Below are positions 1 through 12,932 of a DNA stretch of 12,932 bases, in pieces. Under the pieces are notes generated by a model. The model was given only the letters and a program-made list of their open reading frames with translations. It searched no databases and was not told the DNA's origin. Within the stretch, counting starts at the first letter, position 1; every line of letters starts with the position of its first letter. Source of the DNA: Candidatus Bathyarchaeota archaeon. Lineage in GTDB: Archaea > Thermoproteota > Bathyarchaeia > TCS64. A program made the translations under genes and the position numbers. The DNA lies in the NCBI GenBank assembly GCA_937877765.1, contig CALGBN010000571.1, positions 1 through 12,932 of the forward strand. The letters run 5' to 3'.

Positions 1-68
1 TTCAAGCAGAAGACGGCATACGAGATGTAGAGAGGTCTCGTGGGCTCGGAGATGTGTATAAGAGACAG
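1..68. other. Illumina Nextera adapter and index (artefact)
   Basis: This is not biological sequence. Bases 3-26 match the Illumina P7 flow-cell primer (CAAGCAGAAGACGG...). Bases 27-34 (GTAGAGAG) are an 8-nt i7 index, which I recognise as the N707 barcode in primer orientation. Bases 35-49 are the Nextera read-2 tail, and 50-68 are the Tn5 mosaic end (AGATGTGTATAAGAGACAG). Genomic sequence begins at 69, so position 69 is a transposase insertion point in a library fragment and the contig was not trimmed. Confidence 0.98.
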
Positions 69-302
69 GTATAGGTGAAGCAGATAAACGGCGAGCATTA
101 TCCCATCAGCTATAGTGAACTCTCCTGTAGGCGGTATACCACCTAGTAGAGACAAATGGAACGCCGTAGCTGAGAGAAGCGTGGAAACTCCTATACCGAT
201 TCTCTGAGAGGGATTGCTTGGAGATATTAAGAACGTCAGCAAAACTATTGCCGATATTACAGAGATGGGTATGATGTTCTTTAGTATCGTTGAGAGAAGA
301 GG
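69..302 (-). CDS. Fragment of a pentameric ligand-gated ion channel (M1-M3 region)
   Basis: Read on the minus strand from about 302 down to 69, one frame stays open for about 78 codons and looks like the membrane domain of a Cys-loop-type channel (GLIC/ELIC/nicotinic receptor superfamily). It begins with a pre-M1/M1 segment (LKNIIPISVISAIVLLTFLI). A short loop with prolines and an Arg follows (SPSNPSQRI), then an M2-like pore helix (GIGVSTLLSATAFHLSL), the M2-M3 loop (GGIPPTGEF) and the start of M3 (IADGIMLAVYLLHLY). In family members M2 lines the pore and the M2-M3 loop couples ligand binding to gating. The extracellular domain should lie upstream but is replaced by MBL sequence past about 295-302, where no start codon is available. 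The 3' end is cut by the adapter. It is a partial gene whose placement here may be chimeric. The family call is from motif recognition only. Confidence 0.7.
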
Positions 303-808
303 ACGGCCAATACGATGAAGCCCTCATATATCTGGTGATAGGCGAGGAACGCGCAGCAGTTATCGATGGAGGCACAGGAATAGGTAGACTGGACAGGCTT
401 GTCATGGAACTCACAGACAAACCATACTTCCTACTGCTCACACACACCCACAACGACCACATCTGTTTACTCGACAGGGAAGCCCGTTACCTATACACAG
501 GTGACATCTACTACACAGGAGGCGTCACCAGCTACCTACCGGGAGGAAACCATGATGATTTTATCAAAAGCTGTAAACGGCTTGTTGATCTCATGCCAGA
601 ATATGACTATTTGATGCCCGCACATAACGAGCCTCTCGTTGAACCAGAGCAGATGCGGGAAATGTATGAGGCCGCAAAAGGCATCAAGGATGGCTCCATT
701 ACTGATTACACCAGTAGGCGTTCAGTGGCAACCAACTACGACACTATGATACGAAGATACCAGTTCAGCAAATTCAGCCTATCAGTCAGAGAAAGCCTCT
801 TCAAGTAG
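290..808 (+). CDS. Truncated MBL-fold metallo-hydrolase with internal deletion
   Basis: This 172-residue frame starts at a TTG and is closely related to the two other MBL genes in this window. It keeps the beta-strand lead-in (IYLVIGEERAAVIDGG), the metal motif HTHNDH (H52, H54, D56, H57), the GD of the bridging Asp (D72) and the late His (MPAHNEP, H112). Compared with the intact paralog at 9917-10831, about 55 N-terminal residues are missing, and 88-89 residues between HxHxDHI and CLLDRE are gone, including the metal-binding His of the PGHSPDS motif. The deletion is in frame. The 5' end runs into inverted ion-channel sequence, so the TTG start is probably only the first available codon and not the native one. 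As drawn the enzyme should be inactive. Either it is a real pseudogene or the amplification or assembly removed sequence. The family call is secure; the integrity of the gene is not. Confidence 0.75.
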   Translation: MREEDGQYDEALIYLVIGEERAAVIDGGTGIGRLDRLVMELTDKPYFLLLTHTHNDHICLLDREARYLYTGDIYYTGGVTSYLPGGNHDDFIKSCKRLVDLMPEYDYLMPAHNEPLVEPEQMREMYEAAKGIKDGSITDYTSRRSVATNYDTMIRRYQFSKFSLSVRESLFK

Positions 809-822
809 GGGGGAGGGGGGGG
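808..822 (+). repeat. Poly-G tract at the end of the truncated MBL gene
   Basis: Six G, one A, then eight G follow directly from the TAG stop of the MBL gene, ending in TACCCC. The run is out of keeping with the AT-rich intergenic DNA around it. It could form G-quadruplex-like structure or be a homopolymer where assembly is unreliable. No function can be assigned. Confidence 0.5.
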
Positions 823-966
823 TACCCCAATCCCAGTCAAAATAGGGCTAATACAGCTTAAACAAGCTCCAAAACAGCCCAGATTGATGCCTGATATATG
901 TAAAAAATCGTCACCTTAACGGGTTTTAAACGCAAAAAACTGTGTCATTAAGCTGTTTTTCGCCGG

Positions 967-997
967 GTTTCTTGACAAGAAACGTTGTCAAGTTTCT
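967..997. promoter_or_regulatory. Paired TTGWCAA operator-like sites upstream of the wHTH gene
   Basis: GTTTCTTGACAAGAAAC at 967-983 is a perfect 8+1+8 inverted repeat centred on 975. A second TTGTCAA core lies at 985-991, centred on 988, and is followed by AGTTTCT, which mirrors the AGAAAC arm of the first site. The two cores are 13 bp apart. They lie upstream of a candidate TATA element (about 1010-1018) of the regulator at 1048, a position suited to a DNA-binding protein acting on this promoter. A matching pair with the same spacing sits at 1951-1972. Further inverted repeats follow: GTGTTAAACAC at 1009-1019 and AGAATA-GGGG-TATTCT at 1024-1039. The binding protein is unknown; autoregulation by the wHTH protein is inferred. 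Confidence 0.6.
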
Positions 998-1008
998 GGG
1001 TTCAAAAA

Positions 1009-1019
1009 GTGTTAAACAC
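1009..1019 (+). promoter_or_regulatory. Candidate TATA element for the wHTH gene
   Basis: GTTAAAC inside the palindrome GTGTTAAACAC is the best AT-rich box before the ATG at 1048. Its centre is about 34 nt from the start, which would leave a leader of roughly 7-10 nt, unlike the leaderless spacing seen elsewhere in the window. Weak evidence. Confidence 0.3.
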
Positions 1020-1047
1020 ATCGAGAATAGGGGTATTCTGTTGAAGA

Positions 1048-1383
1048 ATGGTGAAGAATACTTCATCTGAACTGGATGACATTATTATCAAGGCGCTTGG
1101 GCATCAGGAAAGGAAAAACATACTCAAGATAATCGCAAGCTACCCTGAAGGCGTCAACTACACAGGCATCCTCGGTGAAACAGAGCTTTCAACGGGAAGA
1201 CTGAACTATCACCTCGGAGAGCTGGAAGAATTTCTAGACAGAGGCGAGGACCGTCTATACAGGTTGAACAAGATCGGTGAGAAGGCTGTAGCTACTATCG
1301 AGTTCATCAACAAGGATGTTGATCTGAACCTACTTGAGACCGTAAACACGAAACGCAGTAAGAGACTTGACTTAAAGCGATAA
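1048..1383 (+). CDS. Winged-helix DNA-binding regulator (N-terminal part of a membrane-anchored wHTH protein)
   Basis: A 111-residue protein with an ArsR-like winged helix. Helix 1 is LGHQERKNILKII (17-29), the recognition-helix region is LSTGRLNYHLGELEEF (47-62), and the wing and last helix follow (EDRLYRLNKIGEKAV, 67-81). The pattern is common in archaeal transcription regulators, many of which carry a C-terminal membrane hairpin. Here the frame stops at 1381-1383, while another frame, open from 1371, continues directly into two membrane helices (1425-1631). Adding one A to the AAA run at 1374-1376 would join them as ...LDLKAIKKRLDTGF.... The native gene is therefore probably 1048-1631, about 195 residues. 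The start is ATG 1048; GTG 1051 is an alternative. Inverted repeats upstream suggest autoregulation. The target is not known, but the neighbouring ABC exporter is a candidate. Confidence 0.8.
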   Translation: MVKNTSSELDDIIIKALGHQERKNILKIIASYPEGVNYTGILGETELSTGRLNYHLGELEEFLDRGEDRLYRLNKIGEKAVATIEFINKDVDLNLLETVNTKRSKRLDLKR

Positions 1384-1424
1384 AGAAGCGACTGGACACT
1401 GGCTTCTACGTCTTCTCATCCATC

Positions 1425-1631
1425 ATGATAGCCATAACTGGACTAATGGCATATTTCGCCTATGTTCAGAGAGACTCTGTTTTAGCAGTATTCACAGGAT
1501 TCTTTGCACTCTTATCAATTGGATTAATCTTCATAACGGATAAGTCAAGGAAAAACGATCCAGAGCGAATCCTATGGATATGGGAATGGCTAGAATGGCG
1601 ACTCATAGGCAACTACAAAAATAAAAACTAA
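1425..1631 (+). CDS. Two-helix membrane segment, probable C-terminus of the upstream wHTH regulator
   Basis: From ATG 1425 this gives 68 residues with two hydrophobic helices (about residues 2-14 and 18-37, split by QRDS), then a basic Trp-rich tail (RILWIWEWLEWRLIG). The frame is open back to 1371 and reads KAIKKRLDTGFYVFSS before the ATG, which extends the first helix to normal length and makes a separate start at 1425 look artificial. The better reading is that this is the membrane anchor of the wHTH protein, separated by a one-base deletion or, less likely, reached by -1 frameshifting at CTTAAAG. No ribosome binding site of note precedes ATG 1425. If translated alone it would be a small membrane protein of unknown role. 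Confidence 0.55.
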   Translation: MIAITGLMAYFAYVQRDSVLAVFTGFFALLSIGLIFITDKSRKNDPERILWIWEWLEWRLIGNYKNKN

Positions 1632-1634
1632 TTT

Positions 1635-1654
1635 ATAAAAAAGGGGAAAAACCC
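1635..1654 (-). terminator. T-rich terminator after the small membrane protein gene
   Basis: Read on the minus strand, the TGA at 1655-1657 is followed by GGG-TTTTT-CCCC-TTTTTT, two T runs typical of archaeal termination signals. It lies between two convergent genes, so it would also separate their transcripts. Confidence 0.5.
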
Positions 1655-1885
1655 TCAATTTTTCAATAGATTCTTCAAAACAAATCCAAAAGCAGATACT
1701 AATCCACCAACTAACACCAAAACCCCACCTAGTTGTATAGGGTTTCCTGTATATGGGGCTAGGAAGACATTGATGTAGTTTGGTTGGACGTAAACGATAT
1801 ACGCAGCTGTAATAATTAGGGCGACTCCGCCGTAACTCAGGTTTCTAGCAGCGAATGCTAGGATGTTTTGTGTTCTTATAATCAT
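1655..1885 (-). CDS. Small two-helix membrane protein, function unknown
   Basis: From the ATG at 1885 this encodes 76 residues with two membrane helices (about GGVALIITAAYIVYV and QLGGVLVLVGGLVSAFGFVL) joined by a loop rich in Pro, Asn and Tyr, and a basic C-terminus (KNLLKN). The frame is open back to a TTG at 1945. ATG 1885 is preferred because a GGTGA Shine-Dalgarno-like sequence lies just before it and the extra residues look like untranslated leader. The ribosome binding site sits in a perfect hairpin. A candidate TATA (AT-rich, about 1930-1943) and a pair of TTGTCAA sites at 1951-1972 lie upstream, so it has its own promoter although it is 89 nt downstream of the ABC ATPase on the same strand. 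I do not recognise a family. A role linked to the exporter or to the convergent membrane-anchored wHTH protein is a guess from position. Confidence 0.6.
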   Translation of the reverse strand: MIIRTQNILAFAARNLSYGGVALIITAAYIVYVQPNYINVFLAPYTGNPIQLGGVLVLVGGLVSAFGFVLKNLLKN

Positions 1886-1905
1886 TTTTTCACCGTTATC
1901 GGTGA
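1886..1905 (-). promoter_or_regulatory. Hairpin enclosing the ribosome binding site of the small membrane protein
   Basis: On the minus strand TCACCG-ATAA-CGGTGA (1905-1890) is a perfect 6-bp stem with a four-base loop. Its 3' arm contains the GGTGA that would pair with 16S rRNA before the ATG at 1885, with AAAA between. The fold would hide the binding site and could make translation conditional. A chance inverted repeat cannot be excluded. Confidence 0.45.
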
Positions 1906-1929
1906 TACAATGGACAAGCAGCTTAGTTT

Positions 1930-1943
1930 TAACTATTTTTAAC
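1930..1943 (-). promoter_or_regulatory. Candidate TATA element of the small membrane protein gene
   Basis: On the minus strand GTTAAAAATAGTTAAAAC is strongly AT-rich and lies just inside the paired TTGTCAA sites. A start about 25 nt on (near 1910) would give a leader of roughly 25 nt including the hairpin and Shine-Dalgarno. It is one of the few leadered genes suggested in this window. Confidence 0.4.
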
Positions 1944-1950
1944 AAAAAAA

Positions 1951-1972
1951 TTTGTCAAAAAGATTTGTCAAA
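1951..1972. promoter_or_regulatory. Paired TTGTCAA operator-like sites upstream of the small membrane protein
   Basis: TTTGTCAAA occurs at 1951-1959 (centre 1955) and again at 1964-1972 (centre 1968), 13 bp apart. TTGTCAA is an odd-centred near-palindrome. Core and spacing match the pair at 972-991 before the wHTH gene. The sites lie immediately upstream of the AT-rich box, where an archaeal activator or a repressor competing with TFB could bind. The same protein probably binds both pairs; this is inferred from sequence only. Confidence 0.6.
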
Positions 1973-1974
1973 GA

Positions 1975-2871
1975 TTAATTGACTACACCCATACGGTGTA
2001 GCTCCTCACGGAGAACATCAACAGTGTTCTTAAGACCTGTTTGCTGTTTCACGTACTCATCACCAGTGATAATACCCTGCTTAAACCGACTATCCAAGCC
2101 TAGAAGCTCGATCTCGATCTCACTGATACGCGACTGCAGTAACTTTGTATAGTCTGCTGTTGGCGCCTCTGAGTCACCTAGTGATGCAACGTCTGCTTGT
2201 ACTACTCCGTCATGTATTCTGAGTATCCTATCGCTGATACGCGCGATGTTTGGGTCGTGGGTAACCATGATGACGGTTTTCTCAAGCTCCTTATTGATCT
2301 TACGGAGATACTCCACTACTACTCGAGCATTCTCTGTATCCAGTTCACCTGTGGGCTCGTCTGCAAGAATAAGCGGAGGACCATTAGCAAGTGCTGCTGC
2401 TAAGGCGATACGCTGTTGTTCACCGCCGCTTAGCTCACCGGGTTTATGATCTGCTCTGTCAAGTAGTCCAACAACATTCAGTAGCTCCTCGATGCGTTTC
2501 TTACGTTCATCAGCCTTGATTCCAAGAGCCGCCATTGGCAACTCAATGTTCTCAGCTGCAGTAAGAGTTGGAATGAGGTTCATGTTCTGGAAGACATGCC
2601 CCACGGTCTCGCGTCTGAAATTAACAAGGTCCCCTGTGGATAGATTGGTTAGGTCGGTATCGAATACCTTGACACTGCCTGCACTTGCCTTGTCTAAGCC
2701 ACCAATAACGTTTAGTAGCGTGGTTTTTCCGCTTCCGCTTGGTCCTATGATGCTTATCATCTCGCCTTTGCGTACGTTGACGTTCAAGCCTCGGAGGGCT
2801 TGGACTTCGATCTGACCGATCTTGTATATCTTTATCAGGTCCCTTACGATGACCGCGTTTCTTGTACTCAT
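1975..2871 (-). CDS. ABC transporter ATPase, MacB/LolD type, with C-terminal extension
   Basis: A 298-residue nucleotide-binding subunit that would power the FtsX-type permease encoded just upstream. All key motifs are visible: Walker A GPSGSGKTT (43-51), Q-loop Gln95 (HVFQNMNLIP), signature LSGGE (147-151), Walker B LILADEPTGELD (167-178, catalytic Glu172) and switch His205 (VTHD). The ABC domain ends at about 225. Family members of this type are usually 220-240 residues. Here about 60 further residues (240-298) form a likely coiled-coil or SHOCT-like helix pair (SRISEIEIELLGLDSRF...) with a GIITGDEY turn. GELD replaces the more common GNLD after Walker B. The ATG start at 2871 is 2 nt after the permease stop, so the two are co-transcribed and probably translationally coupled. 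The substrate is unknown; MacB-like systems move lipids or peptides or do mechanical work rather than importing solutes. Confidence 0.92.
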   Translation of the reverse strand: MSTRNAVIVRDLIKIYKIGQIEVQALRGLNVNVRKGEMISIIGPSGSGKTTLLNVIGGLDKASAGSVKVFDTDLTNLSTGDLVNFRRETVGHVFQNMNLIPTLTAAENIELPMAALGIKADERKKRIEELLNVVGLLDRADHKPGELSGGEQQRIALAAALANGPPLILADEPTGELDTENARVVVEYLRKINKELEKTVIMVTHDPNIARISDRILRIHDGVVQADVASLGDSEAPTADYTKLLQSRISEIEIELLGLDSRFKQGIITGDEYVKQQTGLKNTVDVLREELHRMGVVN

Positions 2872-2873
2872 TT

Positions 2874-5618
2874 TTATTCCTCCAGTTTTAGATCCGGCTC
2901 AGCCGCGATCCTGTTTACAGCCACCACGATGGGAACAATGGTGGACACTATTATTAGCCCTATGATTAACCCCATCTGCAGTATCACCATATTGGTGAAC
3001 ACTACCTTGTATCTGAATATGAAAGCCAGCGCCTGATTTAGCAGATTAACCACTCCATACAATGTGAATATACCCACAAACAGACCCAAAGCAATAGCGA
3101 ACAAGTCCATGCCAAGGTTTTCCACGAGCAGGGTTACCATCATCTGTCTTGGACTGAAGCCTCTGATGCTCATGATTGTGAGTTCCTTGTTTCTGCTCCT
3201 GATCATTGTTGATACTATCAAGATTATTCCAACTGATGCTACCAAGCCCGCGAAGTATGTGCCTAAAACTTGTACCTGTTTGGAGCCGCTAAGTATCACG
3301 TTATCCAAGGCGTTCTCAAGGTTTATCGCCGTCATGTCTACGCGCTGAACATCAAGGTCCACATCACCTAGAACATTACGCATGGTCTCCGGGTTAACAT
3401 CGGGCTCAAGGTTCACGATTATTCTGCGCTGATCGATATATCGTTCCTTGATCTGCTCCATGAAGATATTGTTGACGTACATCATGGGATTGCTTGGAAC
3501 ATAGTTTTCACCAGTAGCCCAGCCATAGAAACCGACTATACGAACAGTGTAAGTTCTGGCGGCTGTGTTCAGAATCATTGTGTTATTTACGCTTAACCCA
3601 AGTGCATCTGCTGCTCCTCGTTCGATTATCGCTCCGTCATCAATTCTCGCCATACGGTCAAACATAGTAAGATCATCCGTAAAGTCCTCTGGAATATACG
3701 CTGAGTCTCGCCAAGCCAATGGATCGATACCCCTCACTGGAATAGAGCCGAGACTGGTATCCGGTGTGAATAATACCTCGATGCTGGCAGCTTCCACGCC
3801 ATCAACAGCAAGAACCTTCTCCAAGACCCCCTCCGCGTCTTCTCCCTCGAAAAGCCATATCGCGGCGTCTGCGCCTACTGAGCTATAAGTTGCGCTCTTG
3901 ATAAAGTCCTCACTGGACGCCACGTTACCGATAACAGTGATGCTGTAGCTAACGATTAACGCTACCATGAATATTGTGGCTCCTGTCTTCTTTAGGTTCC
4001 TGCTTGAGCTCAGTGTTGAGAACTTTGCGGCATCACCTACGATCATCTCAGATATCTTGCTGAGAAGCTTCTGATAACGGGGTAACACCTTGATGAAGAG
4101 AGTCGTAAAGCCCCAGAAGAACACGATCGAGGATATGAAGCTAAGAATATAGTCAAAACCCCACCAAGTCGAATAAAGCAACGTAACAATCAGGTTAGTT
4201 GAGCTAGGCTGGAACATGTCCACGTTCAAACCAAAATAGATCATCGCAAACCTATAGACACCCAAAAGGAGGGCAATGATTGGTCCAAGTAGATCCTCTT
4301 CTTCCTCGTCGTCTGATAGGTGTTCTCTTAGTGCGTCTACGATGTTTATCTCGACTGCTTTTTGGGCTGGTCTGAAGATTGAGAATAATGAGAGGGCTGC
4401 GCTGAACACGAATACGGTTACAAGCGTTACTGGGTTGGTCGCTAGGAGAATATCAATAGGATTAACGCCCTGAATAACCAGTGGCAATACAAGGCTTCCA
4501 GCAACTATGCCCAATATCCAAGCTAGCACAGATACCAGTACGCCCTCAAAGAGAAGCATCTGCAACACCTGTCTATGATTCAGTCCTCGGGTCAGCAGTA
4601 AACCGATCTCACGACGCCTGAGACCAAACACCACCTCAGCGATAGTGGTCCCAAGATACCACGCCGTAAAGAAGACGGGAAGACTTACCACCATGGTGTT
4701 TGACTTCATCGAGTTAAGATTCTGCTCAATAGCCTCCAGTATCTGCCCAAGGAAGTTTTCCGGCAAATACATGTACTCGGCGCCATTAGCGTTGATCTCT
4801 TCAAGAATCAAAGTAACCCGATCTATACTCCCCTGAATATCCCATGGGTTAACAAGCATATCCCGGTCAAGACTAATTAAAGCTACACCATGCTGGTCAT
4901 CAGTTGGTCGTCGCTCCTCGGCGAAAATCGAGTTTTGAATATCCATGTAAGTGTCTGTGCTCATGAGGATTAGGTTATAGCTGGGACGTTTCTGGCTGGG
5001 ATCATTTCTGTTGAATAAACCGGTCAGATAACTGCTGTATCGCCCTACAAATAATGTCCACGCAGTGTCCTCTACCGCTATTGCGTCCTGTATAGGCATC
5101 TTGAATTGCCTGTTCTCGAACCCCGGTGGGCTCTTCCACAAATAGGTACTGAGGTCTATAACAACGGAGCCATTTTCCATGTACTCCTCTGTGAGAGCTG
5201 AGCTGACGTCAAAATAGACCTTTCCTCTTTCAAGGAAGTCGATGCCCACAAGTTGATCATAAAAGACGCTATCATCAGGAATGGCGATCAGATAGACGCC
5301 CTCAACCGTGACATTTGTGCCCGGCTCCCAGATATTAACAGGGGCATAGACAAATTGATCAATAGCCGTTACGCCCTCAATATCCCCCATAACGTTCTCG
5401 ACGTCAAATATCCGGGTATCAGTGATGTTCTTGTCACTCGCCTCATCAATGATGTCGTAAGGAGCTGACTCGAATATCTGCTGAATGCTCCGAGCACCAA
5501 TAGCGTCCGCTCCTTGAAGTATACCCGCAAATAATGTGGTGGCTAATGCGACGCTTAAGAAGAGGGATAGAAACATACCTCTTCCGCGTATTATTCGTTT
5601 GATAGCGTAACGGAACAT
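2874..5618 (-). CDS. FtsX/MacB-type ABC transporter permease with two FtsX domains
   Basis: A membrane subunit of 914 residues from ATG 5618; the frame is open to a TTG at 5624. ATG is preferred because a TTTAAAC box lies 25-27 nt upstream, matching the leaderless pattern here. Counting from the TTG, there is an N-terminal helix (about 17-36) and a large extracytoplasmic domain (40-305). FtsX domain 1 has three helices (about 311-417) and the cytoplasmic coupling motif RRREIGLLLTRGLNHRQ. An acidic linker follows (SDDEEEEDLL, 437-446), then additional helices (about 447-465 and 490-513), another helix (549-568), a second external domain (570-780), and FtsX domain 2 (about 787-904) with the matching RSRNKELTIMSIRGFSPRQ. 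This duplicated layout is known from large archaeal and bacterial MacB/LolC-like permeases. It works with the ATPase 2 nt downstream. The cargo cannot be read from the sequence. Confidence 0.9.
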   Translation of the reverse strand: MFRYAIKRIIRGRGMFLSLFLSVALATTLFAGILQGADAIGARSIQQIFESAPYDIIDEASDKNITDTRIFDVENVMGDIEGVTAIDQFVYAPVNIWEPGTNVTVEGVYLIAIPDDSVFYDQLVGIDFLERGKVYFDVSSALTEEYMENGSVVIDLSTYLWKSPPGFENRQFKMPIQDAIAVEDTAWTLFVGRYSSYLTGLFNRNDPSQKRPSYNLILMSTDTYMDIQNSIFAEERRPTDDQHGVALISLDRDMLVNPWDIQGSIDRVTLILEEINANGAEYMYLPENFLGQILEAIEQNLNSMKSNTMVVSLPVFFTAWYLGTTIAEVVFGLRRREIGLLLTRGLNHRQVLQMLLFEGVLVSVLAWILGIVAGSLVLPLVIQGVNPIDILLATNPVTLVTVFVFSAALSLFSIFRPAQKAVEINIVDALREHLSDDEEEEDLLGPIIALLLGVYRFAMIYFGLNVDMFQPSSTNLIVTLLYSTWWGFDYILSFISSIVFFWGFTTLFIKVLPRYQKLLSKISEMIVGDAAKFSTLSSSRNLKKTGATIFMVALIVSYSITVIGNVASSEDFIKSATYSSVGADAAIWLFEGEDAEGVLEKVLAVDGVEAASIEVLFTPDTSLGSIPVRGIDPLAWRDSAYIPEDFTDDLTMFDRMARIDDGAIIERGAADALGLSVNNTMILNTAARTYTVRIVGFYGWATGENYVPSNPMMYVNNIFMEQIKERYIDQRRIIVNLEPDVNPETMRNVLGDVDLDVQRVDMTAINLENALDNVILSGSKQVQVLGTYFAGLVASVGIILIVSTMIRSRNKELTIMSIRGFSPRQMMVTLLVENLGMDLFAIALGLFVGIFTLYGVVNLLNQALAFIFRYKVVFTNMVILQMGLIIGLIIVSTIVPIVVAVNRIAAEPDLKLEE

Positions 5619-5639
5619 CCTCAAAAGAGACGCGGTGCA

Positions 5640-5648
5640 TGTTTAAAA
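5640..5648 (-). promoter_or_regulatory. TATA box of the ABC exporter operon
   Basis: On the minus strand TTTTTTTAAACATG places an AT-rich TATA-like core about 25-27 nt before ATG 5618, so transcription would start at or next to the ATG. This supports ATG 5618 over the longer TTG start at 5624. Confidence 0.5.
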
Positions 5649-5663
5649 AAAGTTGCCTAAATG

Positions 5664-5746
5664 GGCTTGTTGAAGCCTTATGTTTATCTAATAAGGATTT
5701 TGCTTAAATAAGCTAAACTTTATAACCGCTCCCCTGTTTTGAACAG
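5664..5746. repeat. Series of four short inverted repeats in a divergent promoter region
   Basis: Between the exporter operon and the DUF1512 gene lie GGCTT-GTTG-AAGCC (5664-5677), CCTTAT-9nt-ATAAGG (5676-5696), GCTTA-AA-TAAGC (5702-5713) and CTGTT-TTG-AACAG (5734-5746). The third sits just upstream of the DUF1512 TATA box and the fourth overlaps the expected transcription start. They could be operators or cruciform-forming DNA, but short palindromes are expected by chance in AT-rich DNA. Confidence 0.35.
5718..5726 (+). promoter_or_regulatory. TATA box of the DUF1512 gene
   Basis: CTTTATAAC is a good archaeal TATA box. Its centre is about 27 nt upstream of GTG 5749 and 36 nt upstream of ATG 5758, favouring a leaderless transcript that starts at the GTG. 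Confidence 0.6.
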
Positions 5747-5748
5747 CA

Positions 5749-6879
5749 GTGAATTTAATGTTCCAACTGCTTGGACAAGTACTTCAACAACAAGACAGCG
5801 AGATAGGCATGATACTGAACACATTGTTCAGTCTAGCGTTTATTGTCTACCTATTCTACGCTCAAAAGATCCAAGGCATGACAATGCTTCGACAAATCGA
5901 AGTAAGCCTACGAAAAATCAAGAGATACCGGGACAAGGGCAAAAACGTAGCCGTTGAAGCCATCAAAGACTATGGTAAACCCGAACAAGACCCCACACCA
6001 CAGGTCGAACGATTCATCGAACACTTCATGATAGAACCAGTGAGCATGGACCCAGCTGGAGTAGTGCAAAAACTAGGAAGTATCATGAATGTAAGAGAGT
6101 TTACGTTCAAACAAGAAGTCGTGCGAATGGCACCAGAAGCCACTGAATCTCAGAGAAACAATCTTGAGAACCTTCTTGAGGCGAGTCTGGTCTTGAATCA
6201 GTTCTACAAGATCATCAGACACTATTACCTGATGGGTAAGAAAACCATGAACATCTACATCATCATGCAGATTCACATGATCCTACCCATGATCATCAAA
6301 CAAATCGAAGCCTACAGTGCAGCACTTCAAGCATTCAGAGACGGCATACCCATCGGAGACAGCGTTGGACCCATCGTAGCATCCAAGCTACTTAATGGCG
6401 CACCCACAAAACTCGTAGCCACAGAGATGATGGCGGGTGAGATCGAGTTTGAGGGAAGAAGAGTCATAGTAACCAAGGCACAGGGACCCGGGGGAAGCGT
6501 AGGTAAACCAGGAGACGCAATTGATTTCCTAGTCAACCGAGAGGAAGGTAAGGTTAAGATGCTTATCACGGTAGACGCAGCCGGTAAACTAGAGGGAGAA
6601 GAAGTAGGCGAGATCGCTGAAGGAGTCGGCGCAGCCATCGGTGGACCCGGAGTAGAGAAGTACAAGATCGAGAAAGCAGCGACAGAGAACAATGTACCGC
6701 TATATGCGGTTGCCATCAAGCAGGGCATGGAACACGTTGTAGCTCCGCTTGTCGAGGAACTCATGGAAGCCACAGATAAAGCAGTAAGCAGCGTCAAAGG
6801 ATTGATACTTGATTATAGCGAGGAAGGCGATACTATAATTGTAGCTGGAATCGGAAACACAGTGGGGGTTGGTCAATAA
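5749..6879 (+). CDS. DUF1512 family membrane-associated protein
   Basis: A protein of 376 residues that I recognise as the archaeal DUF1512 family, whose function is not established to my knowledge. There is one N-terminal membrane helix (about 21-38), then a charged helical region, a helical stretch with IYIIMQIHMILPMI, and a conserved C-terminal half. The hallmark stretches are IPIGDSVGPIVASKLL, TEMMAGEIEFEGRRVIV, KAQGPGGSVGKPG, EIAEGVGAAIGGPGVEKYKIE and the closing IVAGIGNTVGVGQ. The Gly-rich segments suggest a nucleotide or phosphate-binding site, but that is inference. The start is GTG 5749 because of the TATA spacing; ATG 5758 is the alternative and costs three residues. The stop overlaps the start of the zinc-ribbon gene (TAATG), so the two are co-translated. 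Confidence 0.85.
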   Translation: MNLMFQLLGQVLQQQDSEIGMILNTLFSLAFIVYLFYAQKIQGMTMLRQIEVSLRKIKRYRDKGKNVAVEAIKDYGKPEQDPTPQVERFIEHFMIEPVSMDPAGVVQKLGSIMNVREFTFKQEVVRMAPEATESQRNNLENLLEASLVLNQFYKIIRHYYLMGKKTMNIYIIMQIHMILPMIIKQIEAYSAALQAFRDGIPIGDSVGPIVASKLLNGAPTKLVATEMMAGEIEFEGRRVIVTKAQGPGGSVGKPGDAIDFLVNREEGKVKMLITVDAAGKLEGEEVGEIAEGVGAAIGGPGVEKYKIEKAATENNVPLYAVAIKQGMEHVVAPLVEELMEATDKAVSSVKGLILDYSEEGDTIIVAGIGNTVGVGQ

Positions 6880-7292
6880 TGGCAGACAGCGACGTAGGAC
6901 CACTAGCAGGAGCAACCCAGAACTGGACGACCCTAGCGCTCATGGTTGTAGTTGGAGCCATTGCTCTTGCCAGCCTTTACATGGGTTTCACTAATTATGG
7001 TGAAGGCAACATGGAAACAGCGTTCATGTACATACTAATCGGTGTCTCAGGGTTCGTAGCCATAGGGTTCACATTCTTCAAAGCGAAGCCAGCAACCAAA
7101 ACACAGGACGGACCAAAAGAAGTCGAAGTAGTTACCACCCTAGAGTGCCCCCAATGCAACCTCAAGAGAGTAAGGGCATTCCAGCCAGGAGACTATATCT
7201 TCAAGAAAGATGAACCATGCACCCGTTGCGAGGGCATGATGACCGTAACACGGATCAACGCCCGAAAGGACCCTAAAGAGAAGAAAGACTAG
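6879..7292 (+). CDS. Small two-helix membrane protein with a C-terminal zinc ribbon
   Basis: A protein of 137 residues with two membrane helices (about 17-37 and 47-68), a linker rich in Lys and Pro, and a C-terminal zinc ribbon with two CPxCG-like knuckles, C90-PQ-C93 and C114-TR-C117. The ribbon would face the cytoplasm if the hairpin inserts with both ends inside. The ATG overlaps the TAA of the DUF1512 gene by one base, which points to coupled translation and a joint complex at the membrane. Its TAG stop overlaps the stop of the convergent methionine aminopeptidase gene in the palindrome CTAG (7289-7292). I do not recognise a named family. Confidence 0.8.
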   Translation: MADSDVGPLAGATQNWTTLALMVVVGAIALASLYMGFTNYGEGNMETAFMYILIGVSGFVAIGFTFFKAKPATKTQDGPKEVEVVTTLECPQCNLKRVRAFQPGDYIFKKDEPCTRCEGMMTVTRINARKDPKEKKD

Positions 7293-8179
7293 GCTGTAGT
7301 TACTTCACAGCCGTCCTCTGTTACGATGACGCTGTGTTCAGCCTGAGCTACTTTTGCATGGCTACTTTCGATAAGCTGTGGGTAGCTCATTATTGATTTT
7401 GCGTACAATAGTTCTTGGAAAGCCTCTACGCCTTTGTCTGAACTGAATTTTCTCATCACCCAACGGGATGCAAAAGGAAGAGTCCTGTACTCGGCTTGAA
7501 TATATTTCTGCATCTTCTTAGCGGTGCCTTTAACAGAGCGTCGCTTCTGCATCCTGTATATGTTACTTGGAGGACCATCAGTGACCAAGCCATCAGCGGT
7601 TGAGGGAACAGCGAAGGGCTCAATGGCGTAAACATCACCCTCATTGATGAGATGCCTATCATGACCATTGACGTTAGGGATACTCTTACCTGCGTGAACC
7701 ACATAACGAGCTAATTTATGTCCAGTAAGATTACGAATAGGCTTGGCACCATGGCTCCTTATTGCGTCCTCGATTGCAGCTCCGATCTCATTTGCCCTGA
7801 CACCGGGTCTGATCGTCTGTATGGCTGCATCAAGACCAGCAGTAGCCGCCTCCACAAGATAATCATAACTAGGATCAAAACTTACAGTCTTTGCTGTATC
7901 TGCGATGTAGCCGTCAACATGAACACCTACATCAAGCTTCACTAGGCTTCGCTCAGGTATCACAGTCTTGTCATTGATAGGCGCACAATAGTGCGCAGCA
8001 ACATGATCAATGTCCACGTTGCATGGGAAAGCCATCTTTCCCCCCATTTCTGCCACTCTTTGGTTTACTAGGTCGCAGATATACTCTACCTTAATACCGG
8101 GCTCTATCTCAGCAAGCGTGGTATCCCGTACCTTTGATGCGATGCGTCCTGCTTCTCTTAGCGCTTCAAACGGCTCCAT
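7289..8179 (-). CDS. map: Methionine aminopeptidase, type 2 (archaeal)
   Basis: Removes the N-terminal Met from new proteins in the cytoplasm using a dinuclear metal centre. The 296-residue length is normal for archaeal enzymes. All five metal ligands are visible: D83 (VKLDVG), D94 (YIADTA), H154 (TGHKLARY), E187 (AIEPFA) and E281 (QAEHSVIV). H63 (AAHYCAP) is the catalytic-pocket His. The type 2 insertion between the last His and last Glu is present (about 195-260), as expected for MetAP2-like enzymes. ATG 8179 starts at the usual family N-terminus. The gene is convergent with the zinc-ribbon gene, sharing the CTAG stop overlap. It follows a T-rich terminator of the universal stress protein gene, so it probably has its own promoter in 8180-8220, though only a weak AT-rich box is visible there. 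Confidence 0.95.
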   Translation of the reverse strand: MEPFEALREAGRIASKVRDTTLAEIEPGIKVEYICDLVNQRVAEMGGKMAFPCNVDIDHVAAHYCAPINDKTVIPERSLVKLDVGVHVDGYIADTAKTVSFDPSYDYLVEAATAGLDAAIQTIRPGVRANEIGAAIEDAIRSHGAKPIRNLTGHKLARYVVHAGKSIPNVNGHDRHLINEGDVYAIEPFAVPSTADGLVTDGPPSNIYRMQKRRSVKGTAKKMQKYIQAEYRTLPFASRWVMRKFSSDKGVEAFQELLYAKSIMSYPQLIESSHAKVAQAEHSVIVTEDGCEVTTA

Positions 8180-8221
8180 ATCAACTAGAAACGTGTATCC
8201 ATAGGAAAAGGGTTCCCCTCT

Positions 8222-8234
8222 AAAAAAACGGGGG
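8222..8234 (-). terminator. T-rich terminator after the universal stress protein gene
   Basis: On the minus strand, the stop of the universal stress protein is followed by AGCCCCCG and seven T (8228-8222), a typical archaeal poly-T terminator. It suggests the aminopeptidase downstream is transcribed separately. Confidence 0.55.
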
Positions 8235-8705
8235 CTACTTTATGATAAGTACGGGTTTTGTACAGCTCTCAACGACACGCCTACTGGTGCTGCCAAGTAT
8301 CCAGCCTGTAATGCCGCCTAGACCCCTGCTGCCGATGACAATTAGGTCCATATCGTTATTTTCAGCCTCATCTACGATGGTACTGCTAGGTCTTCCTTCC
8401 AAAAGCTGGGTTGTTACCTGTAGATCAGGGAAGTGGCCCTTGATGTCTTCCTCGGCTTCCTCAAGGCTCTTACCATAGATTGTTTTCATCCTGTCTTGGT
8501 AGTCTCCAAGGTCTTGGGCTGCCGTGACTGGGGCTGCCCCGAATCCCTCGTCTGGGAAGACTGGCATCATTACCTTTGGTACGACGGATATGATGTGGAC
8601 TGATGCTTTCGATAAATCAGCGATAGATACAGCGTGATCTAAGGCGTGTTTACTTGCCTCTGAACCATCAAACGCTACTAGTATCTTTTTGTACATTTTG
8701 CTCAT
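8235..8705 (-). CDS. Universal stress protein (UspA family)
   Basis: A 156-residue cytoplasmic single-domain Usp. The N-terminal beta strand and nucleotide-contacting Asp are seen in KKILVAFDGSEAS (D13). The ATP-binding signature G-2x-G-9x-G-S is intact in GSRGLGGITGWILGSTS (G125, G128, G138, S139), and the final strand PVLIIK closes the fold. It therefore belongs to the ATP-binding subgroup. The exact role in this organism is unknown; family members act in stress survival or as small regulatory partners. ATG 8705 is chosen because a TATA box lies 24 nt upstream, giving a leaderless mRNA; a second in-frame Met lies three codons on. The promoter sits right after the stop of the DUF1177 gene. 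Confidence 0.92.
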   Translation of the reverse strand: MSKMYKKILVAFDGSEASKHALDHAVSIADLSKASVHIISVVPKVMMPVFPDEGFGAAPVTAAQDLGDYQDRMKTIYGKSLEEAEEDIKGHFPDLQVTTQLLEGRPSSTIVDEAENNDMDLIVIGSRGLGGITGWILGSTSRRVVESCTKPVLIIK

Positions 8706-8724
8706 GAATTATATGGTGACGAGG

Positions 8725-8734
8725 GATATAAACC
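8725..8734 (-). promoter_or_regulatory. TATA box of the universal stress protein gene
   Basis: GGTTTATATC on the minus strand is a strong archaeal TATA box centred about 24 nt before ATG 8705. It begins 2 nt after the end of the upstream DUF1177 gene. Confidence 0.65.
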
Positions 8735-8736
8735 TC

Positions 8737-9663
8737 TCAACCCAAAGCTTGCAGATGCTTGTGAGCACCATATTTCTCTAGGATGATCTCCCACTCATCA
8801 ACATCATAGAAGCAGCATAACCCCTTACCATACTGCTTAGCAACCTCGATCACATATCTCCCAGCCGCCTCAATATCAGTAGGATGACTAGCACCAGTAC
8901 CACACCCCGGTACAGGCACCTGCGTAGTAATCGCTAAACCAAGAACGGGTACGTTTGTGGCGATACATGGCTGCATTATACTGTTGATGTGATCCAAACC
9001 GTTGCCATAGGGGGTAATGTCCTGAGTTGTAATCGGGCATATTTTGGGTAGTTCCCCTGTAACCCACTCCATGATGTCTACTAGGTCTTTACTCACCTTC
9101 AGCACCCACCCCTCCTTGACCGTGGGAGTTATGGCGAATCCCCTCCAGTTAGCAAGCCTATTCCCCTTAGTTGTATCAATGCTGATGAGGGCGTCCATCT
9201 CCAGATCAACCTCATGCTTGTTCATAGTAACCGTATCAACAGGACTCCCCATGAAAGGCACAGGCTCATGGGGTTTAATTGGGGCATCAGGGCAAATATG
9301 CGTCGCAACGATCACATCCCCCTGTAGTTGATCACCTTTTCGCTGCATGTCAGCCAGCTTCATGGCTACACTGAGGGCTGTGCTTGCTCCATCAGAGTCA
9401 GAGACGAGTCCAATCTGTTCTGGGCGGGCGCCTATGCCCCCGAGTCTTCCGATTACTCCGAGGGTTGGTGCTTTTCCTCCCCTTGTTTTACCGTTTTTAC
9501 CGGGTATGCGTATCTTGATGAAGTCGGTGCTTCCCTCTGCGCCTTTGATTTCCTTGATGGTGATGTCTGTTAAGCCATGTTCCTTTAGTAAGGTTGCTAC
9601 TTTTTCGCCTGTTATATTGGCGTCGTCTAGTAGCTCCATGACATCGATTACTTGTTTCAACAT
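8737..9663 (-). CDS. DUF1177 family protein
   Basis: A protein of 308 residues that I recognise as DUF1177, found in archaea and some bacteria and, as far as I know, without an assigned reaction. Conserved blocks are MLKQVIDVMELLDD at the N-terminus, GSTDFIKIRIPG, GRLGGIGARPEQIGLVSD, ATHICPDAPIKPHEPVPF, SIDTTKGN, ITPYGNGLDHINSI, PGCGTGASHPTDIE and CCFYDVDEWE. The many conserved His, Asp and Glu in turns suggest a metal-dependent hydrolase-like active site; this is inference. The frame is open 42 codons upstream to 9789. ATG 9663 is the right start because the family block begins there and a TATA box lies about 27 nt upstream. No obvious pathway partner lies next to it. Confidence 0.85.
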   Translation of the reverse strand: MLKQVIDVMELLDDANITGEKVATLLKEHGLTDITIKEIKGAEGSTDFIKIRIPGKNGKTRGGKAPTLGVIGRLGGIGARPEQIGLVSDSDGASTALSVAMKLADMQRKGDQLQGDVIVATHICPDAPIKPHEPVPFMGSPVDTVTMNKHEVDLEMDALISIDTTKGNRLANWRGFAITPTVKEGWVLKVSKDLVDIMEWVTGELPKICPITTQDITPYGNGLDHINSIMQPCIATNVPVLGLAITTQVPVPGCGTGASHPTDIEAAGRYVIEVAKQYGKGLCCFYDVDEWEIILEKYGAHKHLQALG

Positions 9664-9685
9664 GATTTGAATATAGCCTGAATAG

Positions 9686-9695
9686 GGATAAAACC
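9686..9695 (-). promoter_or_regulatory. TATA box of the DUF1177 gene
   Basis: GGTTTTATCC on the minus strand is centred about 27 nt before ATG 9663 and fixes that start over the longer open frame. Confidence 0.6.
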
Positions 9696-9715
9696 CTTGA
9701 TGCTCAGTGACATCA

Positions 9716-9723
9716 GGTTTAAC
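9716..9723 (+). promoter_or_regulatory. Candidate TATA box of the small coiled-coil ORF
   Basis: GGTTTAAC lies with its centre about 27 nt upstream of GTG 9747, the same spacing as the other promoters here. It lies about 30 bp from the divergent DUF1177 TATA box. Confidence 0.4.
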
Positions 9724-9746
9724 AGAGGTCTCACCGAGAACAAACC

Positions 9747-9920
9747 GTGGCAGTGACTGTAACCAACAGAAACGAGGAAGAGGAGACACTCAAACACAGG
9801 ATAAAACAACTTAAAAAACGGGAAAAACGCCTCAGAGAAGAACGTCACAACATCGAAGCTCAGCTAAGAGAAAAAATATTCAAACGATACAAGAAAATGT
9901 ATGAAAAAATAGAAGATTAA
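9747..9920 (+). CDS. Very small highly charged coiled-coil protein
   Basis: A 57-residue frame from GTG 9747 to TAA 9920, with GTG 9753 as an alternative start. After a short N-terminus (MAVTVTNRN) it is almost entirely Lys, Arg and Glu with regularly spaced Leu and Ile (TLKHRIKQLKKREKRLREER...), predicting one long helix able to form a coiled coil. It ends in an aromatic basic patch (FKRYKKMYEKIED). Support comes from the TATA-like box at leaderless distance and from the stop overlapping the convergent MBL gene stop in TTAA (9917-9920), as happens at another gene pair in this window. No family is recognised. It could bind nucleic acid or a partner protein. It is close to divergent with the DUF1177 gene. 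Confidence 0.6.
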   Translation: MAVTVTNRNEEEETLKHRIKQLKKREKRLREERHNIEAQLREKIFKRYKKMYEKIED

Positions 9921-10831
9921 CGCTCAGCCCGAACAATCAAGCTGAAACGCCCATAATCATACCGGTGAACCGGAATACCATCAGCGACGCCCTCAGTATA
10001 CTCACCAGCTGTATCCGCCTTGATGCTTTTCGCCGCCTCGTAACATTCTTTGATGAGATGTTTCTCGATCCGAGGCTCATTGTGGCTGGGCATAACCCAA
10101 TCATAGTAAGGCATCAGCTCAGTCATCTTCGCGAAACTCTCGATAAACTGATCGAGGTTCGTGGTCGGTTTATAGACATAGATGGGTGCAGGGTAGAAGC
10201 TGTCACCGGTCCAGAATAGCTTGTTTTCCCTATCCAGTAAACATATGCTGTCGGGGCTATGACCGGGAGTGAATATTACCTCTAGGATTCTTCCACCAAG
10301 GTCGATCTTGTCCCCGTCTTTGAGCCACCTTGTTACTTTGAAGGGCTTGACACTCCACGTTTCCTTGTCGAAACCGTCTGGGAATGGTTTCCAAACCATG
10401 TCTCCATCAAGGTAGTTACCAGTCGAAGCCTTGGTTCTGCCTTTAGCTGCCTGTTCTCTACTGTACGGGGTGTCTGGAGTGGCTATCTTATCGAATTGGT
10501 GGTTTCCTCCTATGTGGTCTAGGTGGGTGTGGGTGTTGACTACCAGTATGGGTAGGTCTGTGAGTTTCTCAGCAAGTGCTTTGATGTCACCGATGCCATT
10601 GGCGGTGTCAATAAGTGCTGCTTTTTCGTCTCCAAGCACGAGATAGCTGATTACTTCCTCAAAGTGTCCATCCTCGTATATCGCGTAGACGGAGTCAGTG
10701 AGCCTGTAGACCTCAAACCAGTTGTCTGGTTGGTCGATTTTATCATATTTACTCCACGCTTCTCGGGGGAGCTTCTCATACCATTTCTTGGGTACAATGA
10801 TGTCTGATTCCGTGTCATCTGAATAAGCCAT
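9917..10831 (-). CDS. MBL-fold metallo-hydrolase, intact
   Basis: A cytoplasmic MBL-superfamily hydrolase of 304 residues. Metal ligands are all present: H101, H103, D105 and H106 in NTHTHLDHIGGN, H191 in FTPGHSPDS, D210 in WTGDSFY and H250 in MPSHNEP. This pattern is that of the glyoxalase II-like and related two-metal hydrolases. About 50 N-terminal residues precede the fold (KKWYEKLPREAW..., DNWFEVYRL). The C-terminus ends in YDYGRFSLIVRA, also found in the paralog at 12115. The substrate is unknown: the family includes thioesterases, lactonases and phosphodiesterases. ATG 10831 is supported by a TATTAC box 24 nt upstream. The gene is convergent with the small coiled-coil ORF. Confidence 0.92.
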   Translation of the reverse strand: MAYSDDTESDIIVPKKWYEKLPREAWSKYDKIDQPDNWFEVYRLTDSVYAIYEDGHFEEVISYLVLGDEKAALIDTANGIGDIKALAEKLTDLPILVVNTHTHLDHIGGNHQFDKIATPDTPYSREQAAKGRTKASTGNYLDGDMVWKPFPDGFDKETWSVKPFKVTRWLKDGDKIDLGGRILEVIFTPGHSPDSICLLDRENKLFWTGDSFYPAPIYVYKPTTNLDQFIESFAKMTELMPYYDWVMPSHNEPRIEKHLIKECYEAAKSIKADTAGEYTEGVADGIPVHRYDYGRFSLIVRAER

Positions 10832-10850
10832 AAGGGGGAACCCACATACA

Positions 10851-10860
10851 GAGTAATAGG
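10851..10860 (-). promoter_or_regulatory. Candidate TATA element of the intact MBL gene
   Basis: CCTATTACTC on the minus strand is centred about 24 nt before ATG 10831. The match to a TATA box is moderate, but the position is the same as for the other leaderless genes. Confidence 0.4.
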
Positions 10861-10872
10861 ATTAACGTTTAC

Positions 10873-10921
10873 GGGCTACGCAAATGGCACCATTTCTGGT
10901 GTTGAACCCAGTAGGCAGCCC
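10873..10921. repeat. Nested inverted repeats between the MBL and glycosyltransferase genes
   Basis: GGGCT (10873-10877) pairs with AGCCC (10917-10921), and inside it CACCA-TTTC-TGGTG (10888-10901) makes a second perfect hairpin. This could be a structured RNA leader, a terminator or an operator for either divergent gene. No poly-T follows on either strand, which argues against a simple terminator. Confidence 0.35.
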
Positions 10922-10966
10922 CGGTTACAGGGAAGTTATTCACACACCTTAGTATCAAGTGATGAC

Positions 10967-12134
10967 TTGGAGATATCCGTTGTACATCCCTCGCTAAACA
11001 AAACAGGGGGAGCAGAACGCTACTGCATAGAGATGATAAACACTCTCACTAACCTAGAGCATACAGTCAATCTCTACACAATCGACAAAACAGACTGGAT
11101 TAAACTCAGAGAGAAACACAACCTCATTGCAGAGCCAGACAAAGAACACTATCTTCAGGAAAAAACACTGACACCAGATGGTTTGTTTTCGTGGATAAGA
11201 ACAGCCTCCGCCTACATGTGGCTCCTCATAGAAGGCACTGAGGAATCAGACATCTGCATCAATAACTACGGAGAGATAATGCCCTTCTTCGCACAGGTCT
11301 CGGTAGTTCACTCGGTGCCCATGAGTTCCATTACAGAGAACAACTATGGAATACCCCTTTGGAAACTAATCCAGCGCGTGTACAATTACATATACGAGAA
11401 CATGGTGCCCTATCACAGCGAAATCATAGTCACCAATAGCAGCTACAACGCCGGGAGAATCAACCACCTTGGAAAAAAAGAGATAATATACCCCCAGTCA
11501 AGCTACCATCTACAAGTCAAGAAGAAAAAAACGGCGAGATCCTTACAGTAGCCAGACTCAAACCCGGGAAAAACCTCAACAGAGTAGCCGAAATAGCCTC
11601 CAACTCCCGTAACAGGTTCAATGTAGCCGGGCATTCAGAGTATGGTTCAGAGCGTCTCATCAAGGAGCTAAGAGACTTCAAGAACATCGAGGTCTATGTG
11701 AATCCACGTAGAGACAAGATAATCGAGCTGATGACCCGGTGCAGTGTTTATCTCTCCACTCAAAACGATGAAGCTTTTGGAATTGCTATCGTGGAAGCCA
11801 TGAGCCTTGGCTGTATCCCATTAGTGTATCGTGGCGGTGGACCGTGGACAGATATTCTCGTTGAGAACGAGGAAAATGGGCTATGTTACTCGACTAGTGA
11901 TGAGGCTGTTGAGAAGATCAGAATGATTCTAATGGACGAGCCAAGCTAAGGGAGAATGGAGTTATTCGCGCTCAAGCATTCACGGATAACGTGTTCAGGC
12001 AAAGTTTCACTGATTTCATGAACAGATTAGAGCCAAGAGAAAAACAAGACAATAGACTCTACAAATGGTATCGTAAAATCAAGTCAATAAAAGCGGGTGT
12101 GAGAGAAAGGGTTTCTATTCGGGTGCCCTTGTGA
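10967..12134 (+). pseudogene. GT4-type glycosyltransferase split by two frameshifts
   Basis: Three consecutive frames together make one glycosyltransferase of about 389 residues, a usual length for the GT4 (GT-B fold) family. Frame A runs from TTG 10967 to about 11495: MEISVVHPSLNKTGGAERY with the Gly-rich loop of the acceptor domain. Frame B runs from about 11491 to 11942: ILTVARLKPGKNL, then the nucleotide-sugar site EAFGIAIVE (E-7x-E) and GCIPLVYRGGGPW. Frame C runs from about 11943 to TGA 12134: KLRENGVIRAQAFTDNVF, the C-terminal helix. Read in frame A alone, translation stops at 11551. Both breaks look like loss of one base, at the C run 11491-11495 and at CC 11941-11942. There are no other stops and the sequence is well conserved, so this is either a very young pseudogene or assembly error. 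It probably made cell-surface or lipid-linked glycans. The 3' end overlaps the convergent MBL gene by 20 bp. Confidence 0.8.
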
Positions 12135-12932
12135 CGACGCTGAATCGTCCGTAATCGTATTTTCGGATTGGGGTTCCCCTGTCTGTGCCTTCCTTGTATG
12201 TGCCTCTTCCCTCGGCTATATCCACGACTGCCTTGAACACTTCCTTGAGTAGCTCTTTCTCGACCCATGGTTCATTGTGGCTAGGCATCAATCGCTCGTA
12301 TTCATCGTAATAGTCCAGCATCCGCATATAGCTATTAACGAACGTAGGAATATCGCCGCCATTGAGATACGTGTAGATTCCGCCTGTATAGAACATATCC
12401 CCCGTGAAGAGAAGCTTGTCCTCCCTATCCAGAAGACATAAACTGTCAGGTGTGTGACCCGGCGTATGCATTACCTCTAGTGTTCGGTTGCCTAGATCAA
12501 ATACATCTCCATCTTTGAACCACTTTGTGACCTTGAACCCGGGAACAACGTAGTTCTCTTTGTCGAAATCCTCTGGTAGTGGTTTCCATGTCATGCCTTC
12601 TGCGATTAGGTGAGCCATCTCGCTGTTGGGTAGCCCTTCTTGTGCTTTGTGGCTCCATGGATGGTCCAGCATGGCTATCTCGTCAAACATGTAGTTCTGG
12701 GCGATGTGATCGTTGTGGGCGTGAGTGTTCAAGACCATCACCGGCATATCCGTGACCTCCGCTACTGCTTTCTTGAGGTTACCGATGCCACAGCCTGTGT
12801 CGATGAGTATTGCCTTATCCTCGCCTAGGACCAGTGTGCTGATGGCTTCCTCATACTGGTATGGCTCGTAAAAGACGTAGATATCGGGGAGCACCCTGTA
12901 GACTTGGAACCAGTCCTGCTTGATAGGTACTC
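12115..12932 (-). CDS. MBL-fold metallo-hydrolase, 5' end beyond the window
   Basis: A third member of the same MBL family, reading from the right edge to TAG at 12115. The visible part covers about 271 residues. It begins with VPIKQDWFQVYRVLPD, aligning with DNWFEVYRLTDS of the paralog at 9917, so the GTG at 12894 is internal and the true start lies past 12932. Counting from that GTG, metal ligands are H58, H60, D62 and H63 (NTHAHNDHIAQN), H147 (HTPGHTPDS), D166 (FTGDMFY) and H206 (MPSHNEP). The catalytic site is complete. The C-terminus YDYGRFSVVTRA matches the paralog. The substrate is unknown. The stop lies inside the last 20 bp of the convergent glycosyltransferase gene. Confidence 0.92.
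   Translation of the reverse strand, partial: VPIKQDWFQVYRVLPDIYVFYEPYQYEEAISTLVLGEDKAILIDTGCGIGNLKKAVAEVTDMPVMVLNTHAHNDHIAQNYMFDEIAMLDHPWSHKAQEGLPNSEMAHLIAEGMTWKPLPEDFDKENYVVPGFKVTKWFKDGDVFDLGNRTLEVMHTPGHTPDSLCLLDREDKLLFTGDMFYTGGIYTYLNGGDIPTFVNSYMRMLDYYDEYERLMPSHNEPWVEKELLKEVFKAVVDIAEGRGTYKEGTDRGTPIRKYDYGRFSVVTRAPE

Follow-up and report, generated by a model that had tools for sequence, protein, structure and literature searches.

The window analysed here is a stretch of 12,932 nucleotides from Candidatus Bathyarchaeota archaeon (Thermoproteota, Bathyarchaeia; GenBank assembly GCA_937877765.1, contig CALGBN010000571.1, positions 1 to 12,932), and its first bases encode, on the minus strand, part of the membrane domain of a pentameric ligand-gated ion channel (pLGIC). 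The fragment is confirmed as a genuine piece of an archaeal pLGIC, while its placement is very probably an artefact, the contig end being apparently chimeric and still bearing a sequencing adapter. As a displaced piece of an already known channel type the window feature is of little weight and adds little by itself, and neither gene order nor the presence of a rare archaeal channel should be argued from this contig end. An experiment would be better spent on the inner mouth of the family to which the fragment belongs. Its full-length archaeal genes (22 of the 25 named loci are titled Bathyarchaeota) lack the inner-mouth acid of GLIC and of nicotinic receptors.

A preliminary description of this DNA, made from the letters alone, had read the minus-strand frame as M1, M2 and the start of M3 of a pLGIC, and this reading holds. 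Translation of 302 to 69 yields a stop-free frame containing the quoted motifs, and full-length channel genes from two genomes of the same family match all 78 fragment residues (E 2.5e-25 with 58% identity, and E 4.8e-22 with 55%). With a full-length homologue as query, the channel match spans 69–311, equivalent to homologue residues 182–262, which places the right limit at about 308–311; the minus-strand reading of 302–1 comprises 100 residues, of which the final 22 are translated adapter. When the fragment is aligned to the structure predicted for L048, a complete homologue, it takes in M1, M2, the M2–M3 loop and, of the 28 M3 residues, the first 15. By alignment, the fragment has the M1 proline, the basic residue at M2 0', Leu 9' and the proline of the M2–M3 loop, the first three of which are described as conserved in pLGICs (Jaiteh et al., 2016; PMC4795631). 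The pre-M2 arginine pointed out in the preliminary description is M2 0' (codon 201–203); positions -1' and -2' hold Gln and Ser, respectively.

For comparison across the family, 90 matching frames were reduced to 47 by duplicate removal, and 37 rows were used, 30 of them from the Bathyarchaeia group (one titled Brockarchaeota) and seven from other Thermoproteota; three bacterial rows, the divergent archaeal paralogues L039 and L091:1-858 and short pieces were left out. Identity of the fragment to the Bathyarchaeia-group rows is 56–67% for 28 of the 30 and 53–54% for the remaining two. In the suggested search against the channel transmembrane family, PF02932 matched the fragment alone with E 7.2e-5, but at 23.6 bits, under the curated cut-off of 28.1. 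This low score is what speaks for an unrelated membrane protein that resembles a channel by chance, a reading with next to no probability given the match to a full-length channel gene whose model matches GLIC, the α7 nicotinic receptors that are the best PDB sequence matches of the fragment (E 1.3e-4), and the lack of any PF02932 match in 14 control genomes; it was rejected.

The left limit of the fragment is set by the library. Base 69 directly adjoins the final base of a 68-base stretch whose two recognisable parts, which we take to be Illumina P7 and the Nextera read-2/mosaic end, match exactly and flank an 8-base index (Table 1); a natural origin of this stretch was rejected. As the adapter stops right before base 69, the left end of the channel piece is a library border and not a biological one. 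At least 40 further exact copies of the 68-base adapter, the window's own copy not among them, are present in the assembly, a count based on the scoring of 40 out of 278 first-look candidates. Of the 40 listed, 21 begin at base 1–5 of a contig and another four are no further than 3 bases from a contig end, so that at least 25 are within 5 bases of an end, the remaining 15 having been judged without the contig extent. A clustering of adapter contamination at contig extremities has also been described for public genome databases (PMC11536531). The many untrimmed Nextera adapters raise the possibility that further contig ends of this assembly are chimeric.

Table 1. Features at the left end of the window.
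Feature	Position	Strand	Basis and remarks
Untrimmed adapter: P7 (3–26), 8-base index (27–34), Nextera read-2/mosaic end (35–68), names as presumed	1..68	plus	Exact matches
pLGIC gene fragment (pre-M1 GRP, M1, M2, M2–M3 loop, part of M3)	69..308	minus	Homology searches, alignment
M3, first part, cut by adapter	69..113	minus	Residues 248–262 of homologue L048
M2 pore helix	138..212	minus	Residues 215–239 of homologue L048; -2' Ser, -1' Gln, 0' Arg at 201–209
M1 helix	225..299	minus	Alignment to the modelled complete homologue L048, residues 186–210
First join, overlapping readings of channel (minus) and metallo-beta-lactamase-fold gene (plus)	299..311	.	Up to about 11 bases readable in both; exact shared length deduced
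Metallo-beta-lactamase-fold gene, 5'-truncated, internally deleted	299..808	plus	Comparison with relatives
Second join, 89 codons missing; edges share the short repeat NDH[IV]	451..463	plus	Comparison with five relatives

At its other end the fragment runs into a gene of the metallo-beta-lactamase fold, and from this first join both genes lack their 5' parts. In comparisons of the metallo-beta-lactamase-fold gene with five genus and family relatives, homologous DNA starts at 299 for four of them and at 305 for the fifth. A second join lies within the same gene: the 89 codons missing there are present in all five relatives, whose genes measure 301–321 codons between stops, and the aligned pieces overlap by 10–13 bases in four of the five (not in L101). 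The suspicion in the preliminary description that the fragment, cut on both sides, comes from elsewhere is justified by this adapter-bearing, apparently chimeric contig end, although neither adapter nor join was mentioned there, and as a whole that description is supported in part.

The two computed joins, both at short repeats and within about 165 bases of one another on a contig that starts in an adapter, indicate a chimeric molecule, and we infer that they arose in vitro. A library molecule, or an earlier amplification product, would have fused part of the channel gene to the metallo-beta-lactamase-fold gene at a short shared sequence, the latter gene being itself fused across a second short repeat; the assembler would then have extended the contig along the chimeric molecule as far as the adapter at the Tn5 cut. 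In multiple displacement amplification (MDA), more than 70% of chimeric junctions were reported to be primed at 2–21 complementary bases (PMC1855051). Template switching in the polymerase chain reaction could account for the joins equally well. Several points weigh against an in vitro origin: the joins are known from the assembled contig alone, so that a true rearrangement or a pseudogene may be present; there is no sign that amplification preceded the assembly; the bases common to the two sides of each join are deduced from relatives and not from intact copies of the source organism, none of which was seen; and the overlaps of MDA chimeras have been reported to peak at 6 bases, with most at 5–8 (PMC4595205), shorter than here.

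A true genomic rearrangement, in which the 5'-truncated channel and metallo-beta-lactamase-fold genes were fused head to head and both became pseudogenes, is an unlikely alternative for which some support exists in the channel genes of relatives, several of which (G197, G168, G206, G117 and L071 among them) carry in-frame stops or split frames, perhaps through assembly errors. The fragment also departs from 5 of 31 positions that are otherwise invariant among the 30 Bathyarchaeia-group rows. However, a gene of the same family (G026) breaks 5 of 36 positions in a leave-one-out comparison and yet retains an intact frame of 313 codons, hence divergence by itself is no proof of decay, and the two short-repeat joins so close together on a contig beginning in adapter are likewise at odds with a rearrangement.

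A chimeric contig end is compatible with either a native or a foreign source of the channel piece, and an origin in another archaeon of the sample, by a cross-genome chimera or by contamination, is quite possible if not favoured. The assembly (2.48 Mb in 573 contigs, 77.83% complete) has an estimated contamination of 4.27%, and the channel was found in none of seven congeners, but in two of the 26 further genomes available for the family. Over 81 residues, the piece is closest to two genes from another family of the class (67% identity), the two same-family genes reaching 57% and 56%, but the placement of the piece in a tree of 81 columns is unsettled and its end branch is long. Its raw codon log-likelihood under the codon table of the window falls below that of every one of 261 overlapping pieces taken from genes of the window itself, and after correction for amino-acid make-up its z-score is -3.2; among homologue regions 17 of 42 are equally low, but so are 3 of 37 of the window's own pieces. 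The GC content fits (0.449 against 0.40–0.48 per kb in the window). As 3 of 37 own pieces are equally low once corrected, codon usage and GC content do not decide between a native and a foreign piece. A study of MDA found that 348 of 475 chimeras joined segments less than 10 kb apart (PMC1855051), which would favour a native source. The full gene, which the preliminary description proposed to look for, exists in relatives, but when the assembly was searched with the Pfam family, with the fragment and with a full-length homologue, no other piece was found at the E-values applied, a result that very short pieces could escape.

With regard to the joined gene, the first 52 residues of the metallo-beta-lactamase-fold frame at 290–808 are 80–87% identical to the closest genus and family relatives and the rest 60–71%. 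Three metallo-beta-lactamase-fold paralogues are found within the 12.9-kb contig (290–808, 9917–10831 and 12115–12930).

The preliminary description had also considered such channels rare in archaea, which does not apply to Bathyarchaeia, where a three-row profile that includes the window piece (E ≤ 1e-5) matches 37 of 256 genomes, the fragment's own counted; four of these (G162, G131, G127 and G132) show weak matches alone and are perhaps divergent relatives. In a sample of the phylum, PF02932 matches 19 of 398 genomes at E ≤ 1e-5, 14 of them above the curated cut-off. Besides the 22 loci titled Bathyarchaeota, the 25 confirmed loci of the named collection comprise one each from an uncultured archaeon, a Brockarchaeota and an alphaproteobacterium (29% identity). 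Among mobile elements, none of 48 pattern matches in IMG/VR viral contigs is a relative and all nine plasmid records lie below 26% identity; NCBIfam gave weak matches alone, well under cut-off. No conserved neighbour accompanies the gene at 24 named loci (L048–L071), the largest shared clusters occurring at six and five of the 24, which presumably encode an ABC-transporter ATPase-like protein and a membrane protein, respectively. Stop-interrupted or split channel genes at L027, L019, L038 and L071 suggest repeated loss or assembly errors. Thaumarchaeal pLGICs were published in 2016 with a patchy distribution and a proposal of gene loss (Jaiteh et al., 2016; PMC4795631), and the broken genes are in line with the frequent loss proposed there, unless they are assembly errors. 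The string 'bathyarchae' does not occur in the main text of that study, which was the only hit of a literature search for pLGIC with Nitrososphaer-; a search combining Bathyarchaeota with ligand-gated ion channel found no publication in the collection covered.

More noteworthy than the fragment itself is a property of the family that concerns the inner mouth of the pore. Alignments to GLIC and to the α7 nicotinic acetylcholine receptor (nAChR) give Ser, Gln, Arg as the -2'/-1'/0' triplet of the window. The 30 Bathyarchaeia-group rows show GQR (12), AQR (9), SQR (7) and TMR (2), with Gln at -1' in 28 and Arg at 0' in all 30; the seven other Thermoproteota rows comprise TAR (2), APR (2), AQR, PPR and TSR, with Ala, Pro or Ser at -1' in six of them. 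The lack of an inner-mouth Glu that had been pointed out in the fragment is therefore real but not peculiar to it, as the region from the M1–M2 loop to the end of M2 is free of Asp and Glu in the window and in 38 of 38 rows of the archaeal clade, one of them from a broken gene. In this region acids occur in all three bacterial rows and in the two divergent archaeal paralogues, L039 combining GQR with two acids in the M1–M2 loop and L091:1-858 combining AER with another acid further on, hence the acid-free mouth is a trait of the clade and not universal to archaeal members. At L091 two channel-like frames, 1–858 (AER) and 904–1845 (APR), lie next to each other, possibly two selectivities side by side.

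As to what such a pore would conduct, the cation-selective signature (Glu at -1' in nAChR, at -2' in GLIC) is absent, none of the 37 rows having an acid at -2' or -1', and the animal anion-selective signature A[R/K] at -1'/0' is not present in the window, which has QR; AR occurs in 2 of 37 rows and PR or SR in 4 of 37. In animals the motif GE[K/R] is cationic and A[R/K] anionic, while in prokaryotes the site alone does not predict selectivity and, outside the Cys-loop clade, the phylogeny of the study in question gives no hint of it (PMC4795631). From sequence, one may reasonably guess that the archaeal clade selects for cations weakly or not at all, and anion permeation is conceivable. More tentatively, and rather doubtfully, the rows might represent an old Thermoproteota pLGIC clade with acid-free pores (Gln at -1' in most genes of the Bathyarchaeia group, Ala, Pro or Ser in related archaea) that passes anions or does not select by charge; eukaryotes would then not be alone in having the inner-mouth chemistry of inhibitory receptors. 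Expression of the archaeal genes would make it possible to test which ions are selected by channels that lie outside the Cys-loop clade.

The alignment used for the structure comprises 20 of the 25 named loci, L054 (a gene covered by L002), L056, L059, L071 and L072 being left out. PF02932 is found in 20 of 20 full-length homologues at E ≤ 0.01 (L048 with 30.0 bits, above the cut-off), and the model of L048 combines an extracellular beta-sandwich with four transmembrane helices at a mean predicted local distance difference test (pLDDT) score of 72.1, the window holding M1 to part of M3. For the ligand-binding domain, which the window lacks, PF02931 reaches E ≤ 0.01 in two of 20 homologues, the lowest value being 0.002, and the cysteines of the Cys-loop disulphide are absent from the homologues, where FDF..YPFE is read by eye from sequences and consensus. 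Intact channels of the family would work in a GLIC-like manner, each subunit being about 310 residues long and made up of a signal peptide, a beta-sandwich outside the cell and four helices; we infer a pentamer in which the extracellular domain gates an M2-lined pore of weak cation selectivity.

GLIC is both the top fold match of the L048 model and the top PDB profile match, and shares with the archaeal homologues the length of about 310 residues, the beta-sandwich with four helices, the M1 and M2–M3 prolines and, in the model, a short M3–M4 loop. It differs at the inner mouth, where in GLIC Glu occupies -2' and Asn 0' while the Bathyarchaeia-group rows have Gly, Ser or Ala at -2' followed by Gln at -1' (28 of 30; Thr and Met in the other two) and Arg at 0'. 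The M1–M2 region of α7 nAChR aligns to the window piece with one single-residue gap, its GEK opposing the SQR of the window with Glu replaced by Gln at -1', and it has the Cys-loop cysteines that the archaeal homologues lack. The anion-selective animal pLGICs GlyR, GABA-A and GluCl have no inner-mouth acid either, and GluCl and GABA-A are among the fold matches; the Bathyarchaeia-group rows differ from them in mostly having Gln at -1', and the likeness is one of sequence. Six archaeal rows of the groups f29 and f61 come closer, with Ala, Pro or Ser followed by Arg at -1'/0', near the anionic A[R/K] motif (PMC4795631). Jaiteh et al. (2016; PMC4795631) likewise describe a thaumarchaeal/archaeal clade of Pro-loop channels that lack the Cys-loop cysteines, are patchily distributed and have suggested gene loss, and it is a guess that the f29 and f61 rows belong to it.
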